Below are positions 53,010 through 62,664 of a stretch of DNA of 64,000 bases, in pieces. A model generated the notes under the pieces. The model made no database searches, was not told the DNA's origin, and worked only from the letters and a program-made list of their open reading frames with translations. Source of the DNA: Candidatus Scalindua japonica (GTDB taxonomy: Bacteria > Planctomycetota > Brocadiia > Brocadiales > Scalinduaceae); NCBI RefSeq assembly GCF_002443295.1, contig NZ_BAOS01000024.1, positions 1 to 64,000 of the forward strand. Reading direction: 5' to 3'. The number at the start of each line of letters is the position of its first letter. Position 1 is the stretch's first letter. Position numbers and translations under genes: made by a program.

Positions 53010-53804
53010 ATGGAAACCACTGTGAATTCTGATTCGGAACTGAAGCAAGAGACTCTTCAGCGCAAAAAACAATCTGGCTATCGTTGTCTCGGAAAACAGA
53101 GAGACGGAAACTATTCACTGTGCGTTGGTGTCCCGACAGCCTGTTTTTCAGCAGCGCAATTTCGCAAAATCTCAGACATTATTGAGAAATTTGCTTCCGT
53201 TGGACATTTCTCAACAGCTCAAAGCCTGATTATCGTTGGAATTCCGGAACACAAGTACTACGAGGCCAAGCGGGCAGTTCTTGATGCAGGCTTTGAAATT
53301 CGTTCCATCGGCAAAGACGTTCGTCAGGTAAAGAGTTGCACGGGAGCGGATTTTTCACCATTTGGACTTCAGCGTACGATGCCATTGGCAACCGAATTGG
53401 AAAAAATGTTTCGCGGCCTTCCCACGCCAATGAAGTTCAAAACTAGTGTTTCCGGTTGCCCAAACTGTTGCGCAAACACCAAGTTGAACGACTTTGGTAT
53501 TCATGGAACGGTTGATGGGTGGAAGATTTTCGTTGGTGGTAAGATGGGCGCATCTCCTGTAATTGCGGAGGAACTTGCTTCGAGAGTACAGCCTGATGAT
53601 GTGCCGAAGTACCTTGCGGCGGTACTGAGAGTTTACAACAAGGAGGCTCAACCAAATGAGAGGATCGCGAAGACTATATCCCGTCTAGGCTTTGAGACAT
53701 TCAAGGCAAACGTTCTGTCAATGCTTAACACCCCATTCGACGATCTGATAAAGAGCGCGAAGGATGCTTACGAAAAAGCCGAGGCTTGCAATTGTATAGG
53801 TTAA
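53010..53804 (+). CDS. small nitrite/sulfite-reductase-like siroheme protein
   Basis: 264 residues with one ferredoxin-like half domain (YSLCVGVPTACFSAAQFRKI) and one 4Fe-4S/siroheme domain, the size of assimilatory-type small sulfite reductases. The cluster motif is unusual: CTGADFSPFG has Ser where the family's C-X5-C has its second Cys, while SGCPNCCANTK has an extra Cys (C-P-N-C-C). Whether a normal cubane forms is uncertain. A CNC pair closes the C-terminus. AAAGGAAAGGA precedes ATG 53010. Substrate unknown. Confidence 0.75.
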   Translation: METTVNSDSELKQETLQRKKQSGYRCLGKQRDGNYSLCVGVPTACFSAAQFRKISDIIEKFASVGHFSTAQSLIIVGIPEHKYYEAKRAVLDAGFEIRSIGKDVRQVKSCTGADFSPFGLQRTMPLATELEKMFRGLPTPMKFKTSVSGCPNCCANTKLNDFGIHGTVDGWKIFVGGKMGASPVIAEELASRVQPDDVPKYLAAVLRVYNKEAQPNERIAKTISRLGFETFKANVLSMLNTPFDDLIKSAKDAYEKAEACNCIG

Positions 53805-54135: not shown

Positions 54136-57100
54136 TCAACCCTGGTTGTCCAGGTCCCAACCACCACCCAACGCCTTATATAATGAGATAAGATTCTTGC
54201 TTACCCTGGCTTCGCTAATGGAAAGCTGATCCTGAAAGGTAAATAAAGTTCGTTCCGCATCCAGGAGATTATTAAAATCAGTTAATCCGTTTGTGTACTG
54301 AATCTTTGCCAGCTTTACTGTCTTTTCCGCAGCTTTGACTGTTTTCTGGAGAGTATCTCTTCTGTTCATTTCACGGGAATATGAGATAACAGCGCTTTCA
54401 ACTTCTTCCAGGGCGGAAAGAACTGTATTGTGGAAACGATAGAGTGCCTGTTTTTCCCGCTCGTTTTGAGCCTTGATGTTATTTCTGATTTGACCGGAAG
54501 AAAATATGCGCCATGTCACTGACGGGCCAACTCCAAAGGTCTGACTCCCTGGTTTAAACACATCTCCTCCATTAGACGCGCTAAATCCAAAGGAATTTTT
54601 GAGAAAGAACTTAGGATAGAGATCAGATTCAGCTACTCCTATACGGGCTGTTTCCGCTGCTAAAGCCCGCTCAGCCATACGGATATCAGGTCTTCTTCGT
54701 AAAAGTGCGGCAGGCAGGCCGATCGCAACTTCTTTTGGCGGTACCGGAATTGAACCTATTCCGGTTAATCGGATATTGAGCGCGCCCGGTTGTTTTCCCG
54801 TCAAGACGGCTATTCGATTTAACGCATGATTCAGTTGTTCTTCAAGAACAGGAATTTGTGCGCGTGTGTTTTCCAGATTTGTTTCAGCTTGCGCGGTATC
54901 TAGTTCATCCGTAAGCCCCGAATCAAAACGTGCCTTTGTCAATTTCAAGGTTTCTTCCTGAGTTTTGACATTGGCTTTGGCAATCCCTAAACGGTTCTGA
55001 GTGTTTCTTAACTCTATATAATTTACCGCAAGCTCCGAAAGCAGGGTTACCATAATATCGTGCAGCTCGGCATGGATTTCGTCCACTTCTGCAGTGGCTG
55101 CTTCAACCGAACGTCTTACGCCTCCAAATATATCAAGTTCCCACGCGGAATCGAATCCGGTAGAATAGATTTCCATGGGAATCGTTTGTCTCTTGTTAAA
55201 AGAGACATTCTTAATGCCTGTATCAGTAGTCTCTGAATTTCTGGTTTTTGAGTACGACCCTAACGCATCAATTAACGGAAACAGATTAGCGTTGGCGACA
55301 GCACGCCGGGCTCGTGCCTCTCTTACTCTGGCAACCGCGATTTTTATATCGTAATTTCCGTCAACCGCCTCTCTTATCAATTTATTTAGTTGCGTGTCTT
55401 CAAAACTTGTCCACCAATGTTTCAGCTCAGATGGCTTTGAGACCAATCCACGTTCCAGGCCGGTCTGCCAATCCTCACTCACCATTGTACGAGGTTGAAT
55501 GTAATTTTTCCCAACCGCACAGCCGCTGAAAGTGAATATGAGCAGCAATGCCCCTGTGACATGTTGAAAACGTGTTACAGATCTCATTTTATCTTTCAGA
55601 TCAAACATCAGGCCTAATAAAATTGGAATAAGAATCAATGTGAATATAGTGGAAATAAACAACCCCCCCACCACAACCGCGCCCAATCCGCGGTAAAGTT
55701 CTGAACCGGAACCAGGCATTAACACCAATGGCAGCATACCACCCACCGAGGTTGACATACTCATGAAGATAGGACGGACACGGCTTTCAACCGCCATTGA
55801 AATTGCTTTGCGTGGTTCCAGTTTCTTGTCATATTGCAAAAAGTTCAATGTTTGAGCGACAATTAAAATCGCATTGTTAACAACCACACCCGCCAGAATG
55901 ACGAATCCGATAATAGTAAGAACGTCCATGTTTTGTACAGGCATGTAACGGTCAACTTCACTCCAGTAATGAACTAATGATAAGCCCAGAAATCCACCAA
56001 AAGTGGCTAACGGAACACTGAACATGATCACAAATGGATATATCCAGCTCTGGAATAAAATACACATGAGCAAGTATACAATCATAACGGCGAGGAATAA
56101 CGCGCTTGACAGCATTCCTGATGCGCTTCCGTCTCCAAGCAACGCCTCCTTCACTTCGGTCAACTTGCTTGCGGCACCTGCCAATTGAATCTCTACACCG
56201 GGCAGAATTGCATTTGCCTTCTTTAGTTCAGCCACCTTCTGGTTTATCCCGTTGATTGCCTTCTGAAGCGGCATGCCTTTCGGTGGAGTAAATTCGAGCG
56301 TTACGGCTCTCTGGCGGTCTACTCGTTTAATTTGTTCAGGTGCTCTTCTCCACTTAAAATCTGATATCGTGTCCAGGTCCAGAATAACCCCGTCAGAAGT
56401 AGTCATTTTCGCGTCACCAAGATTTGTAATCGTGGTTTGATCAATGGCGTCCTTAGAAATCAATTTTAAATCTATGATATCTCCGCCAAGATCATAATCA
56501 CCAATAAGTGCTCCGTCGCTATTTGCCTGGATTGTCAGTCCAAGATCTTCAACGGTCAGATTAAGATCTGTCATCCGGTCAAGATCAGGTATTATCTGCA
56601 GCTCCGGAGCCGGCACATTAAAATTTACCGGATCAGGACGGACGGCAAAGGATCCATACTCTTGAACCAATGTCCCAAACAAAGCTGACGCGGACTGACT
56701 GACATCTTCCAGATCAGAGCCAACCAGATCAATCTTTACGGCGCTTCCCGAGCTGCCGCCCATACGAAATAGTGGACTTTGAAACGCAAAGGAATAAACA
56801 CCCGGAAGCGTGTCCTGTGTTGTCGAAGCTTTAAATAACGATACCAGATCCACGACACGTCTGGGATCTGCGCTGATACACCCGTGAAAAAGCGTCGCTC
56901 CTTTTCTTCCTCCTCCCTGAAAGTAATGCTTGATCGGCGGAGGGGTGATAGAGGGAGAATTCGGAACAATATCTGAAGGTACTTTATACAACTGACTGTC
57001 CATGCCATTCGGGTTTGCTCCCGCTTCCCAAAAAGGGCGTATTTTTTTTTCGACACGCTCTCCAAGCTCTCTAAGTTTTTTCACATTATATCCCGGAGGA

Positions 57101-58908
57101 GGTATCATAATTCCGAACGTTAAATTTCTATTTCCGGTAGGCAAATAATCAATAGGGGGAATAGTTACAATGATTCCCAGCAGAGTCACAATGATGAAAA
57201 CAGAAATTATCAAAACTCTTCTCATCATGCTTCCATTCAACCAATATACCAGTTTGTACAGATATCGGGAAAAGTTAGAGAGATAGTAGTAGACAGTCCT
57301 GAAAAGGTTGGTGATTCCCGCAAGTTTTCCGGGTGACACAACCATCGGTTTTTCGATTTGTGTTTTTTTCTGCTCTACGTACTTTTTTACACCCACCTTC
57401 AAAAACAGCGCTGCACCGCATGGCACTACGGTAATCGACACTATGTAGCTTAGCCCTACCGCGGCAATAATGGCTAATGCGATGTCCCGCATAAGCTGCC
57501 CTGATGTTTCCTGTATTAAAAGGATGGGGATAAAGACCAGCAAGGTTGTCAGTGTAGACGCCAATACCGCGCCGCTTACCTCTGTCGCACCGTCCAGAGC
57601 CGCTTTGGTTTTAGATTTTCCCATTTCCATGTGCCGAAAAACATTTTCCAGCACAACGATAGAGTTATCGACAACCATCCCAACGGCAAAAGCCATTCCT
57701 GCCAGACTTATAACATTAATACTGCGACCCAGAGCGACCATGACTACTATAGAACCAACTATTGAAATTGGAATAGCAATGGCGATAATGCCAATCGATC
57801 GAAGAGATCTCAGGAAGGTGAGCAGTGCGATCACGGCAAGTATTCCTCCAATAACAATACTACTCTTGACAAGATCAAATGCCTGATTGATGTAATCGGT
57901 CTGGTCATAGACTTGAAAGAGCTCTAACCCTCCTTTGATTCCATACGATTTTGCATAGCTATCCAGAATTCCGCCTTTGGCTTTAATCCTTTCTGCCTCT
58001 TCTTTCAGCTTTGCCATAACCTCCATTACGTTGGCACCAGGCTCTTTCTGGAAATTCATTGCCAATATATTTTGCCCGTTGGATCGAACAAAATCTGTCT
58101 TCTCTTTGAGCGTTTCTACTACCGTTGCAACATCCCGTACGTAAACCGACCCTGATTCATCCTGTCTTATTATAGTATCAAGGATTTGATCAGGTGAACT
58201 GAACCTGCCCAGGGCGCGAACACGGATATCCAGTTTACTTTGTGCCATGGCGCCTGCTGAAAAGTTACGGTTTGTTGCCTGTATAGCGCGAATGAAATCC
58301 GGAACGGTTATCCGGCGTTGAGCCATCAGCACCGGGTCAAAGTGAATCTGGGTCTCTCGTTCTCTTCCCCCCAGAACATTACTTTCTGAAAGCCCCGGCA
58401 CTCTTTCCAGTATTGGCTTTACCCTGTCTTCGACAAAATCTTTCAGGGCTTGTATATCAAAATCAGGGTCAGGGGTTCTCATCAGAAACCATGCGATGTA
58501 GTCATTACTTTCAGGATCTGTAGCATCTATAACCGGTTCGTCAACATCCACAGGATAATTGGGAACCTCTCTTAACTTATCACTTACTTCGCGCAGAGCG
58601 GTGTCTTTGTCAACGCCTGTTGCGAACTCCAGACGAATTTGACCTTGTCCACGCTGACTGACACTGCTCATACTCCGCAAGTTTGACAATCCCTGAAGTT
58701 TTTCTTCCTGATCATCAATGATCTCCGATTCGACCTCTTGGGGACTTGAGTTCTCCCAACGGGTAGTAACTGCAATGACGGTATCCTCCACTTCCGGAGT
58801 CATTTGAACAGGAACTCTTGTAATTGCAATAATACCCGCAATGATTATCAGTATAATACCAACGGCAACGGTAATGGGCTGTTCAATTGCTTTTTTAATA
58901 AGATTCAT
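54136..58908 (-). CDS. RND efflux pump fused in frame to an OprM/NodT-type outer-membrane factor
   Basis: 1,590 residues. Residues 1-1107 are a complete HAE1-type RND proton antiporter: N-terminal helix, two porter domains, GMVVDNSIVVLENV (TM4; Asp-Asn where many have Asp-Asp) and a C-terminal helix ending LIPILLGLMFDLKDK. From Met1108 (ATG 55587) a whole NodT-type outer-membrane lipoprotein follows with its own signal and lipobox (LLLIFTFSGCAVG), two OEP repeats and ALLRRRPDIRMAERAL. No stop separates them. A weak ribosome site (GAAAG) precedes the internal ATG, so a separate product is possible. It overlaps the adaptor gene by 14 bp. Confidence 0.85.
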   Translation of the reverse strand: MNLIKKAIEQPITVAVGIILIIIAGIIAITRVPVQMTPEVEDTVIAVTTRWENSSPQEVESEIIDDQEEKLQGLSNLRSMSSVSQRGQGQIRLEFATGVDKDTALREVSDKLREVPNYPVDVDEPVIDATDPESNDYIAWFLMRTPDPDFDIQALKDFVEDRVKPILERVPGLSESNVLGGRERETQIHFDPVLMAQRRITVPDFIRAIQATNRNFSAGAMAQSKLDIRVRALGRFSSPDQILDTIIRQDESGSVYVRDVATVVETLKEKTDFVRSNGQNILAMNFQKEPGANVMEVMAKLKEEAERIKAKGGILDSYAKSYGIKGGLELFQVYDQTDYINQAFDLVKSSIVIGGILAVIALLTFLRSLRSIGIIAIAIPISIVGSIVVMVALGRSINVISLAGMAFAVGMVVDNSIVVLENVFRHMEMGKSKTKAALDGATEVSGAVLASTLTTLLVFIPILLIQETSGQLMRDIALAIIAAVGLSYIVSITVVPCGAALFLKVGVKKYVEQKKTQIEKPMVVSPGKLAGITNLFRTVYYYLSNFSRYLYKLVYWLNGSMMRRVLIISVFIIVTLLGIIVTIPPIDYLPTGNRNLTFGIMIPPPGYNVKKLRELGERVEKKIRPFWEAGANPNGMDSQLYKVPSDIVPNSPSITPPPIKHYFQGGGRKGATLFHGCISADPRRVVDLVSLFKASTTQDTLPGVYSFAFQSPLFRMGGSSGSAVKIDLVGSDLEDVSQSASALFGTLVQEYGSFAVRPDPVNFNVPAPELQIIPDLDRMTDLNLTVEDLGLTIQANSDGALIGDYDLGGDIIDLKLISKDAIDQTTITNLGDAKMTTSDGVILDLDTISDFKWRRAPEQIKRVDRQRAVTLEFTPPKGMPLQKAINGINQKVAELKKANAILPGVEIQLAGAASKLTEVKEALLGDGSASGMLSSALFLAVMIVYLLMCILFQSWIYPFVIMFSVPLATFGGFLGLSLVHYWSEVDRYMPVQNMDVLTIIGFVILAGVVVNNAILIVAQTLNFLQYDKKLEPRKAISMAVESRVRPIFMSMSTSVGGMLPLVLMPGSGSELYRGLGAVVVGGLFISTIFTLILIPILLGLMFDLKDKMRSVTRFQHVTGALLLIFTFSGCAVGKNYIQPRTMVSEDWQTGLERGLVSKPSELKHWWTSFEDTQLNKLIREAVDGNYDIKIAVARVREARARRAVANANLFPLIDALGSYSKTRNSETTDTGIKNVSFNKRQTIPMEIYSTGFDSAWELDIFGGVRRSVEAATAEVDEIHAELHDIMVTLLSELAVNYIELRNTQNRLGIAKANVKTQEETLKLTKARFDSGLTDELDTAQAETNLENTRAQIPVLEEQLNHALNRIAVLTGKQPGALNIRLTGIGSIPVPPKEVAIGLPAALLRRRPDIRMAERALAAETARIGVAESDLYPKFFLKNSFGFSASNGGDVFKPGSQTFGVGPSVTWRIFSSGQIRNNIKAQNEREKQALYRFHNTVLSALEEVESAVISYSREMNRRDTLQKTVKAAEKTVKLAKIQYTNGLTDFNNLLDAERTLFTFQDQLSISEARVSKNLISLYKALGGGWDLDNQG

Positions 58909-60052
58909 TTTTATCCGCTTTTAAGATGGTTACCGGTGACATGGGACGCAAACGTTCATTGCCTTCGACTACAATTAAATCTCCTTTCCTGAGATCGCTT
59001 GATTCAATACAGAGGCCATCATCTATTGCAAAATGCACGCGCAGAGAAACGGGAACGGCGACAGAATTCCCATCGCTTCCCTTGCCTATCTTGTATGCAA
59101 ACTCGCCTCCCGAATCCCTCATAACAGAGTCGGTGGGAATAACCAGATAATCACCCTTTTCATTTGTTGGAATTGTGGCTGTTACGCTCATCCCCGGAGC
59201 AAAAAAATATTTCTTCGATTTCAGCACGGCTATCAGAATATAACGTCTTGAACGAGGGTCGACATCCGGAATGACTTTAATATCCTCCGCTTCAACCTGA
59301 ATATTCCGCTCTTTCAAATTAACAGTAATTGTTTTCAAAGATTGAAGCCTTTCCATTGAAAAATTCTCAGACACCTCGAAGACGGCTTCAATAGAGCCGC
59401 TTGATATCAGTGTAACTATGGGACTGCCCGGATTAACCCACTCACCTGTTTCTGCGTGTTTTCTGACAATATTTCCGTCAAAAGGCGCGCGTATCACGGT
59501 ATCATCCACTCTGACCTTAAGGAGAGAAAGACGTGCGCGGGCAAGTTCATAATCACTTTCCGCTGCCTTTTGTGCTGATTTTGCAACGGCAAGAACCATT
59601 TTTGCGCGCCGGATAGCTTCCTTACTGACTGCTCCTACAGCTAATTTCTGCGACTTGGTTCTCCGGTTTAACTCTTCCTGATAGGTTGCCAACTCAGCTT
59701 TTCGCTGTTCGATGGTGGCCAGTTTTATTTGAACGTCATGGTCTGCCTGTTCCACTTCAAGTTTAAGCTTCCGGGAATCGAGCTCTGCCAATATATCACC
59801 CTTTTTTACTATCTGCCCTTCCCTCCTGTCAGCCGTAACGACAAGACCTGACTCCTGGCTCGCAACATCTGAGCGTTGGTATGCGCGCAGGTTTCCGGTA
59901 ACGGTACGGCGTATTTCGGCGCTCTTGAATTCAACCGGTTTGACTTTTACTGCAGAAGCTTGACCTTGAGCGAATGTGATCGTTGTTAAAAGAGTTGTGC
60001 AGGTTATCGCCAAAAGTATATTCGACACCTTGATAATTAATGCTTTAAACAT
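58895..60052 (-). CDS. RND periplasmic adaptor (HlyD/MFP family)
   Basis: About 385 residues from ATG 60052 (AGGGG upstream; signal peptide MFKALIIKVSNILLAITCTT...FAQG); the open frame reaches TTG 60121. It has lipoyl half-motifs (GLVVTADRREGQIVKKGDILAELD; DTVIRAPFDGNIVRKHAETGEWV), a long coiled-coil hairpin between them (residues 95-165) and a beta-barrel with a membrane-proximal domain. It bridges the inner-membrane pump and the outer-membrane duct. Second gene of the tetR-adaptor-pump operon. Confidence 0.88.
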   Translation of the reverse strand: MFKALIIKVSNILLAITCTTLLTTITFAQGQASAVKVKPVEFKSAEIRRTVTGNLRAYQRSDVASQESGLVVTADRREGQIVKKGDILAELDSRKLKLEVEQADHDVQIKLATIEQRKAELATYQEELNRRTKSQKLAVGAVSKEAIRRAKMVLAVAKSAQKAAESDYELARARLSLLKVRVDDTVIRAPFDGNIVRKHAETGEWVNPGSPIVTLISSGSIEAVFEVSENFSMERLQSLKTITVNLKERNIQVEAEDIKVIPDVDPRSRRYILIAVLKSKKYFFAPGMSVTATIPTNEKGDYLVIPTDSVMRDSGGEFAYKIGKGSDGNSVAVPVSLRVHFAIDDGLCIESSDLRKGDLIVVEGNERLRPMSPVTILKADKNESY

Positions 60053-60117: not shown

Positions 60118-60738
60118 TCAACTTTTTACTCCTTCCATAAACAAGGTAAAGATATGTTCTGGAAGAAATTCAGTAATAGGTTTTTTCCTTTTTTCTGGTG
60201 AGATCAGTCTTGTAAAGATGGGTTCATAAGTGAAATAGTAAAGGATCATACCTATCAAACTGAATGTTGAAAGCGTTGAGTCGTGCTTCCTGAAGGTCCC
60301 TTTCTGAATGCCCTCCTTGATTATGTCATGTACAAGGTCGAAATTCTTTGAAATATATTTTTTTACAATGATATCAATGTGTTTTGATTGGGATATAGTC
60401 TCTCTTAGAATAATCCTGTGAAGGTCTTTATGGTGATGAAGGAAGGTAATATATATCTTTATAATATCGTATATCTTCTCTTCAGGTTCTTTTCCTTGAG
60501 CAACTCCTTCCTTCAGGGACTGAAAAAAACTTTTAAAAGCATCATCAATAACATTCTGATGGAGCTCTTCCTTGGTATTGAAGTAATAATAGACCATTGC
60601 AATATTAATACCTGCTTTCCCGGCGATTTCCCTTACAGTAGTCAATGCAAAACCCTGCTTTGCAAACAGTACTTTGGCAGACCTGAGGATAATTTCCTTA
60701 CTGTTTTTTTGGGTCTCTTGACTTTTTTTATCTGCCAC
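60118..60738 (-). CDS. TetR-family regulator of the efflux operon
   Basis: 206 residues starting at GTG 60738 (AAAGGAG upstream). The HTH is TTVREIAGKAGINIAMVYYYFNTKEELHQ (residues 37-65), typical of AcrR/TtgR-like repressors; the C-terminal domain is helical with a late hydrophobic helix. First gene of the operon and 66 bp upstream of the best adaptor start. A palindrome sits in its own promoter, so autorepression is likely. Confidence 0.87.
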   Translation of the reverse strand: MADKKSQETQKNSKEIILRSAKVLFAKQGFALTTVREIAGKAGINIAMVYYYFNTKEELHQNVIDDAFKSFFQSLKEGVAQGKEPEEKIYDIIKIYITFLHHHKDLHRIILRETISQSKHIDIIVKKYISKNFDLVHDIIKEGIQKGTFRKHDSTLSTFSLIGMILYYFTYEPIFTRLISPEKRKKPITEFLPEHIFTLFMEGVKS

Positions 60739-60892: not shown

Positions 60893-61002
60893 GCTACCGG
60901 ATTTTAACGAGAAGTCTATTGTTGGTTCATTCAAATATTGTTATATTCGTCGTCGACGGTTTGAAAATTAGAGTAGACATTTATCATAGGAGAATTAAAC
61001 AT

Positions 61003-62664
61003 ATGTGCAACAAATCAAACGTGCTGAAGATTTTTTATCTGTTTTCATTCTCAGGACTGTTAGTTTTTGGTACCGTGCGTGCGGGGGCTCATGAGTTGCA
61101 CAGAGAGAATCAGGCTTTGGCCGGGAGTTTTGCATATGTACAGCAGAAAACAGTTGAAGAGGAAAAACAGCACCAGCCCGATGTAAAGCTAAGTCCGATC
61201 ATAACAGCGGCAAATCAATTCTGCGTCGAATGCCATAAAAATCTGACACCGGCTCTGGTAATGGAATGGGAGCGATCACGTCATGCTCAAGAAGGGGTAG
61301 GGTGCGTTGATTGCCACAATGCTGACAAGGGAGAAATAGACGCCTGGCAGCACATGGGAGCCTTGATTTCTACATTAGTTACACCTAAAGACTGCTCAAG
61401 CTGTCATGTAGAGGAGTATAAAGATTTTTCAAGAAGCCATCACGCAAAAGCTGGAGAAATCTTTGCCAGCATGGATAATGTACTTGCTGAACAGGTTATT
61501 GGTCTTCCATGGAATAATGCAGATGCTGTTAATGGATGCTGGCAGTGTCATGGAAGTATAATTAGATTTCAACGTAATGATAATGGTGAAATATTGCGGG
61601 AAGGAGGAAAACCTTTATTTGACCCTGATACATGGCCAAACAGTGGGATAGGCCGGTTAAATCCGGATGGTTCAAAAGGTTCGTGTCACGCATGCCATTC
61701 GAGACATTCATTTGAGGCAAAACTGTCCAGAGCACCTGAAAATTGTGGTAAGTGCCATATGGGCCCTGATCATCCACAGATAGAAATTTATAGAGAGTCA
61801 AAGCATGGAATTGCATATACCGCTAATATTGATCACATGGCACTGGATAAAGAAGGCGGCTGGGTGCTGGGAAAGGATTATTCGGCGGCCCCGACTTGTA
61901 CTACCTGCCATATCAGCAGCTATATGACGTCTGAAGGACAGCATAAAGCCAGTAATCATGATGTTGGAGAACGAATAAGCTGGACACTTCGGCCGGTAGT
62001 CAGTACAAAGATAAATATGGTTGTATATGAAGATGGATTTAAGGAAGATTATCCTGATACCCGGCAATTACCTGAGATTGGCGAAGAGGTTCTGGTGACA
62101 GAAAAAAACTTACAGGAGGAAAAGTTAGTTACGAAAATTGTTTCAAAACGGGTTGTTGAAATTGTGACCTGGCAGGAACGGCGCGAAAAAATGAAAGGTG
62201 TATGTAGGAATTGCCATAACCAAACTCACGTCGATAATTTTTACCATCAATTTGATAATTTCGTGAACCTTTACAACGAGAAATTTGCAAAACCTGCACA
62301 GGCAATGATGAATTCGCTGATTGAAGATGAAGTCTTAAATACAAATGCCCCGTTTGAACATGAAGTACAATGGGTTTTTTGGGAATTATGGCACCATGAA
62401 GGTAGAAGAGCACGACATGGAGCAAGTATGATGGGTCCTGATTATGCTCACTGGCACGGATTATATGAGGTGGCAAAACACTATTATGTGAAATTTTTAC
62501 CTTCTGTTATTAAAGCTGCTGCCCAGAAGAGTGATAAGATGAAGATAAAATATGAACAAAAAATTAAGAAATTGCTGCAGCAGCCGGAGCACGCATGGGT
62601 TAAGGGCCTTTCTGAAGACGAGATAGAAGTATTAAAATCGACATATGAAAATCGTTATAACTGA
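61003..62664 (+). CDS. octaheme hydroxylamine-oxidoreductase-like cytochrome c
   Basis: 553 residues from ATG 61003 (TAGGAGA upstream) with a signal peptide ending near VRAGA. Eight CXXCH motifs lie near residues 74, 101, 131, 179, 228, 248, 299 and 401, the HAO spacing with the catalytic-type heme at the fourth (CWQCH). The C-terminal MGPDYAHWHGLYE block (Tyr near 481) matches the region holding the Tyr cross-linked to heme 4 in oxidative HAOs. In anammox organisms HAO paralogues oxidise hydrazine, hydroxylamine or NO, or reduce nitrite, in the anammoxosome lumen. Which applies here cannot be read. No redox partner gene is adjacent. Confidence 0.88.
   Translation: MCNKSNVLKIFYLFSFSGLLVFGTVRAGAHELHRENQALAGSFAYVQQKTVEEEKQHQPDVKLSPIITAANQFCVECHKNLTPALVMEWERSRHAQEGVGCVDCHNADKGEIDAWQHMGALISTLVTPKDCSSCHVEEYKDFSRSHHAKAGEIFASMDNVLAEQVIGLPWNNADAVNGCWQCHGSIIRFQRNDNGEILREGGKPLFDPDTWPNSGIGRLNPDGSKGSCHACHSRHSFEAKLSRAPENCGKCHMGPDHPQIEIYRESKHGIAYTANIDHMALDKEGGWVLGKDYSAAPTCTTCHISSYMTSEGQHKASNHDVGERISWTLRPVVSTKINMVVYEDGFKEDYPDTRQLPEIGEEVLVTEKNLQEEKLVTKIVSKRVVEIVTWQERREKMKGVCRNCHNQTHVDNFYHQFDNFVNLYNEKFAKPAQAMMNSLIEDEVLNTNAPFEHEVQWVFWELWHHEGRRARHGASMMGPDYAHWHGLYEVAKHYYVKFLPSVIKAAAQKSDKMKIKYEQKIKKLLQQPEHAWVKGLSEDEIEVLKSTYENRYN

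Follow-up and report, generated by a model that had tools for sequence, protein, structure and literature searches.

The components that an efflux system has in the inner and in the outer membrane are usually taken as separate chains, and in the tripartite systems built on pumps of the resistance-nodulation-cell division (RND) family, the pump and an outer-membrane factor (OMF) of NodT, OprN or OprM type have separate genes. Two subunits of a membrane complex made as one chain are known from the Bradyrhizobium fbcH product, a cytochrome b/c1 precursor split at an internal signal peptide, which differs in serving a respiratory complex within one membrane and in being cut by signal peptidase I instead of signal peptidase II (LspA). 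Here we describe an RND–OMF fusion in the window, i.e. the whole 64,000-nucleotide stretch analysed (the first 64,000 positions of contig NZ_BAOS01000024.1 of Candidatus Scalindua japonica). It is one open frame of 1,590 codons, read from 58908 to 54136 on the reverse strand, and its product is very probably an efflux polyprotein, a single chain cut by LspA into an RND pump and an OMF lipoprotein.

RND–OMF fusions already occur in public genomes, hence this kind of architecture has precedents. In Bacteroidota, pumps of CzcA type, about 1,450 residues long, carry a C-terminal TolC (dozens in 118 genomes, e.g. locus L124), and 26 of the 27 junctions scored (L124, L116, L165-L194) show a hydrophobic segment and then a signal-peptidase-I-like site that has Gln as its +1 residue. 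This count is a loose one, since the pattern was defined after several junctions had been seen and one or two matches (e.g. L182) are perhaps misplaced. Gln after such a site is expected from the Bacteroidetes Q-rule (PMC5837995). The window fusion shares with these proteins the order of an RND pump and a C-terminal OMF in one chain with an embedded signal sequence, whereas they belong to the CusA/CzcA (HME) metal family TIGR00914, have an OMF without lipobox and an AxA/Q-type site (slash, predicted cut), and are of separate origin. Against TIGR00914 the window fusion scores 272 bits for a cut-off of 701, and it has a lipobox in place of AxA/Q, so it is not of the Bacteroidota type. With the tripartite systems it has in common the protein families, the adaptor in the operon and the lipoprotein-type start of the OMF; the difference is that the outgroups have two adjacent genes, while here pump and OMF are fused in frame and the signal of the OMF lies inside the chain.

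Domains and junction of the fused frame

The sequence-only reading had described a complete RND pump running into a complete NodT-type lipoprotein that keeps its signal sequence and lipobox, and profile searches bear this out. In Pfam, ACR_tran begins at residue 4 and OEP ends at residue 1581. The ACR_tran match (PF00873, 611 bits) covers the full-length domain, and the relatives of this half in the PDB are 7wlv, MdtB, CmeB and AcrB; NF033617 and NF000282 match below their own cut-offs, hence the pump is not an exact member of either NCBIfam subfamily. For the OMF half, NCBIfam TIGR01845 (NodT) gives 358.3 bits over a cut-off of 210.05, from residue 1123 to 1583, or model positions 3-460 of 460, and with the model covered nearly end to end the OMF is complete and includes its start region. 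Residues 1-444 of solved OprN, whose numbering begins with the Cys of the mature protein, align with no offset starting at Cys1130, which leaves no spare linker. OprN is also the top match among solved structures of an AlphaFold model of residues 1099-1590 (template modelling scores 0.70/0.75), whose mean predicted local distance difference test score is a modest 70.6, with the first ~60 residues poor. The architecture is a whole HAE-1-type RND pump, then a whole NodT/OprN-type OMF.

Concerning the proton relay, D414 corresponds to AcrB D407, but N415 and N1011 stand at the positions of D408 and K940 (window 57664-57669 and 55876-55878). D407, D408 and K940 of AcrB are a feature of characterised HAE-1 pumps and not of the Pfam family. 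Since D408 and K940 are replaced, the pump is assigned to the ACR_tran family and called HAE-1-like only. Fused relatives L099 and L104 also depart from the AcrB relay, with VDN and NNAI.

The junction reads FDLKDKMRSVTRFQHVTGALLLIFTFSG followed by CAVGKNY, the first residue of the latter being the lipobox Cys, residue 1130 (55521-55519). Unlike in ordinary NodT-type OMF lipoproteins, the signal does not stand at the N-terminus of its own chain but lies at residues ~1103-1130 of 1,590. The GC pair and the mature start C-x-V-G-x-x-Y-x-x-P are invariant across fused and free OMFs, and the genome of the window has genes for Lgt, LspA and LolA. It should be noted that a 12-bp imperfect inverted repeat spans the junction just 3' of ATG 55587 (window 55554-55580); it is poorly kept by the codons of the relatives.

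Conservation and repeated origin of the fusion

A search of 59 genomes found the same fusion, uninterrupted by a stop, in four others of the family at 94, 91, 89 and 86% identity. These belong to Candidatus Scalindua / Brocadiaceae, anammox bacteria, and the five genomes together fall in two genera of the family. The same architecture being open in four other genomes, the observation goes beyond chance. Two genes occur only in more distant relatives; the close ones do not have them. Pairwise ratios of non-synonymous to synonymous substitution rates (dN/dS) are 0.12-0.16 in the pump half and 0.11-0.24 in the OMF half, low values in both parts that indicate purifying selection on each. The junction has higher values, 0.18-1.29 from few sites, and nevertheless retains its charge and hydrophobic pattern. 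In a sixth copy (RBC_AMX3, genome G015, loci L013/L052) many frameshifts split the fusion, the junction itself still lying in one frame; this may reflect local decay or an assembly error. In the same genome (L052/L112) frameshifts also break the TetR and nitrite/sulphite reductase-like (NirSir) neighbours but spare the adaptor and multihaem genes.

In Verrucomicrobiota and Planctomycetota, relatives at about 50% identity encode the pump and, after it, the OMF lipoprotein in separate genes. Several of these pairs overlap by 4 bp, as ATGA in L046, L048 and L051, GTGA in L047 and TTGA, as a possible start, in L050; in others a gap of a few bases up to about 45 lies between the genes. One small insertion or deletion at such an overlap would be enough to put both genes in a single frame, which makes the overlap a plausible ancestral starting point.

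Beyond the family, 392 Planctomycetota genomes were surveyed with two candidates scored per genome, so that counts are minimal, and a second survey used a fused query. They yielded further fusions with a NodT-type OMF (L099/L070 and L100/L072), L099 being a sister fusion from outside the class, and others with a different, divergent OMF (L101, L103, L104, L105, L106 and L151). The latter have tails of ~590-650 residues, with a stretch of ~100 residues between lipobox and OMF domain. In a tree of 77 pump domains (short tree search) fused pumps take three places, namely a group of the Scalindua copies and L070, the single pump L072, and another clade including one unfused member, and at least four gains or losses of the fusion are required. 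The unfused pump (L085/L102, genome G205), which lies within the divergent-OMF clade, has no recognisable OMF for several kb downstream; possibly its OMF half was lost. Two loci suggested as fusions by open-frame length (L107, L108) were rejected, as pump and OMF lie in different frames, and the head extensions of L102 and L111, in which Pfam detects no domain, are probably frames that stay open by chance in DNA rich in GC. Among the matches listed in a plasmid search there were only two-piece pump and OMF matches, at 25-30% identity.

All 13 intact Planctomycetota fusions, which come from three clades of the pump tree, share a junction in which basic residues precede a hydrophobic core and [GAS]C follows it, a pattern that shuffled junctions reach in 1.3-5.4% of cases. 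Beyond the pump, each of the 13 chains continues for 481-648 residues, and the lipobox Cys is the single Cys among them. Asp at +2, the signal for inner-membrane retention in E. coli, is found in none.

Proposed processing at the lipobox and its alternatives

The LspA-cut polyprotein would be made as follows. The RND pump, with 12 transmembrane helices (TM1 to TM12), would insert in the inner membrane with its C-terminal end in the cytoplasm, as is the rule for RND pumps, and with the pump ending there, an N-in signal segment directly after TM12 fits the topology. The basic junction and short hydrophobic core would serve as a lipoprotein signal within the chain and form a 13th membrane segment, directing the OMF to the periplasm; Lgt would then lipidate Cys1130 and LspA would cleave between Gly1129 and Cys1130. 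The freed OMF lipoprotein would move to the outer membrane, and the used signal would stay on the pump as its C-terminal helix. In this way the two partners would be produced 1:1, matching the 3:3 pump:OMF need of tripartite RND pumps, with the adaptor of the same operon as partner.

The single frame and its conservation, the selection on both halves, the kept lipobox and the Lgt, LspA and LolA genes are observed, whereas topology, lipidation, cleavage, stoichiometric benefit and substrate are things we infer. Several points weigh against this picture: we know of no LspA substrate with a whole transporter ahead of its signal to cite; Phe at lipobox position -3 is uncommon; a hydrophobic segment by itself would persist as a mere membrane anchor too; and the window copy could additionally start a lipoprotein precursor at Met1108 in this strain.

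The sequence-only reading had left three options, i.e. cleavage at the lipobox, use of the internal ATG at 55587 or recent loss of a stop codon, of which the first is well supported by conservation, the second is not supported and the third is rejected. Initiation at ATG 55587 or a nearby start, giving a free OMF precursor beside the fusion, is in our view unlikely. In its favour, this ATG would yield a good lipoprotein precursor (MRSVTRFQHVTGALLLIFTFSGC), L072 also has a suitably placed ATG, and relatives with separate genes have 4-bp ATGA and GTGA overlaps at that place. However, no clear Shine-Dalgarno sequence precedes ATG 55587, and the four closest relatives have CTG, CTA, CTA and TTA in place of this codon. 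The nearest other candidate, at the end of TM12, is ATG, ATG, GTG or GTA by genome; it is present in L009, L011 and L012 and is the GTA in L010, which has no ATG, GTG or TTG from the end of TM12 to the hydrophobic core of the signal. Since all five copies have the same OMF but no common start codon in the junction, internal initiation is not the general route, and, read from the sequences, a single chain is translated.

The fate of that chain leaves room for two proposals of very low probability. That it works uncut, as one polypeptide bridging both membranes, would agree with the open frame maintained by selection and with the established 1:1 ratio of pump to OMF in RND complexes, but a mere anchor needs neither an invariant GC nor the absence of other Cys. 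Just as improbable is a split by another protease, e.g. signal peptidase I: the Bacteroidota fusions have a junction of that type, while those of Planctomycetota have retained [GAS]C and begin their mature part as lipoproteins do. Least credible of all is a recent stop loss, an assembly error or a decaying gene. The frameshifted RBC_AMX3 copy is what speaks for it, and there the junction is in frame and neighbouring genes are broken as well; against it stand five open copies in two genera, low dN/dS in both halves and the sister fusion L099 outside the class.

Operon context and significance

Gene order TetR–adaptor–fusion is retained in the loci read, and in the window the adaptor stop and pump start overlap by 14 bp. 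A divergent multihaem cytochrome c gene (window 60919-62664), with weak similarity to hydrazine dehydrogenase, adjoins the efflux operon. Downstream and convergent to the fusion, at window 53010-53804, lies the gene for a short stand-alone nitrite/sulphite reductase-like protein (NIR_SIR plus ferredoxin-like half domain).

Table 1. Parts of the fusion and associated operon genes, in window coordinates.
Feature	Position	Strand	Remarks
RND pump–OMF lipoprotein fusion, open reading frame	54136..58908	-	1,590 codons; L009-L012 likewise have a single frame
RND permease half, residues 1-1102, HAE-1-like, 12 transmembrane helices, predicted cytoplasmic C-terminus	55603..58908	-	Pfam ACR_tran; PDB relatives
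Junction n-region, residues 1103-1119, 4 K/R (DLKDKMRSVTRFQHVTG)	55552..55602	-	Basic residues retained despite sequence variation
Hydrophobic core of embedded signal peptide, ALLLIFTF, residues 1120-1127	55528..55551	-	
Lipobox FSG/C, residues 1127-1130, predicted Lgt/LspA site before Cys1130	55519..55530	-	Invariant in five Scalindua-type genomes; sole Cys after pump
Internal ATG (Met1108)	55585..55587	-	Not conserved
Mature OMF, residues 1130-1590, NodT/OprN type	54139..55521	-	TIGR01845; OprN alignment; AlphaFold model
Periplasmic adaptor (membrane fusion protein) gene	58895..60052	-	TIGR01730, 183 bits; upstream of fusion in L038-L041 and L052
TetR-type regulator gene, head of operon	60118..60738	-	Pfam TetR_N; kept upstream in other fusion loci

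Judged by their junctions, the Planctomycetota and Bacteroidota fusions each keep the cut-site type of their own phylum. It seems likely, with somewhat less confidence than for the window fusion itself, that signal peptidases serve as polyprotein processors in bacteria, LspA in Planctomycetota and signal peptidase I in Bacteroidota; this would hold for both phyla, for two RND families and for several fusions that arose independently. In the open-access literature searched we found neither RND–OMF fusions nor the cleavage of an internal lipobox by LspA described, which is not proof of absence; within that literature we likewise did not find the lipoprotein type of fusion in HAE-1-like pumps, the repeated origin of this type or the phylum-typical cut site in every fusion read.

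A conserved fusion with an internal lipobox predicts LspA activity deep inside a polytopic protein. If this is true, the lipoprotein machinery doubles as a polyprotein processing system that fixes the subunit ratio. It also matters for annotation, as such fusions are easily labelled as pump only and their OMF half is then overlooked.
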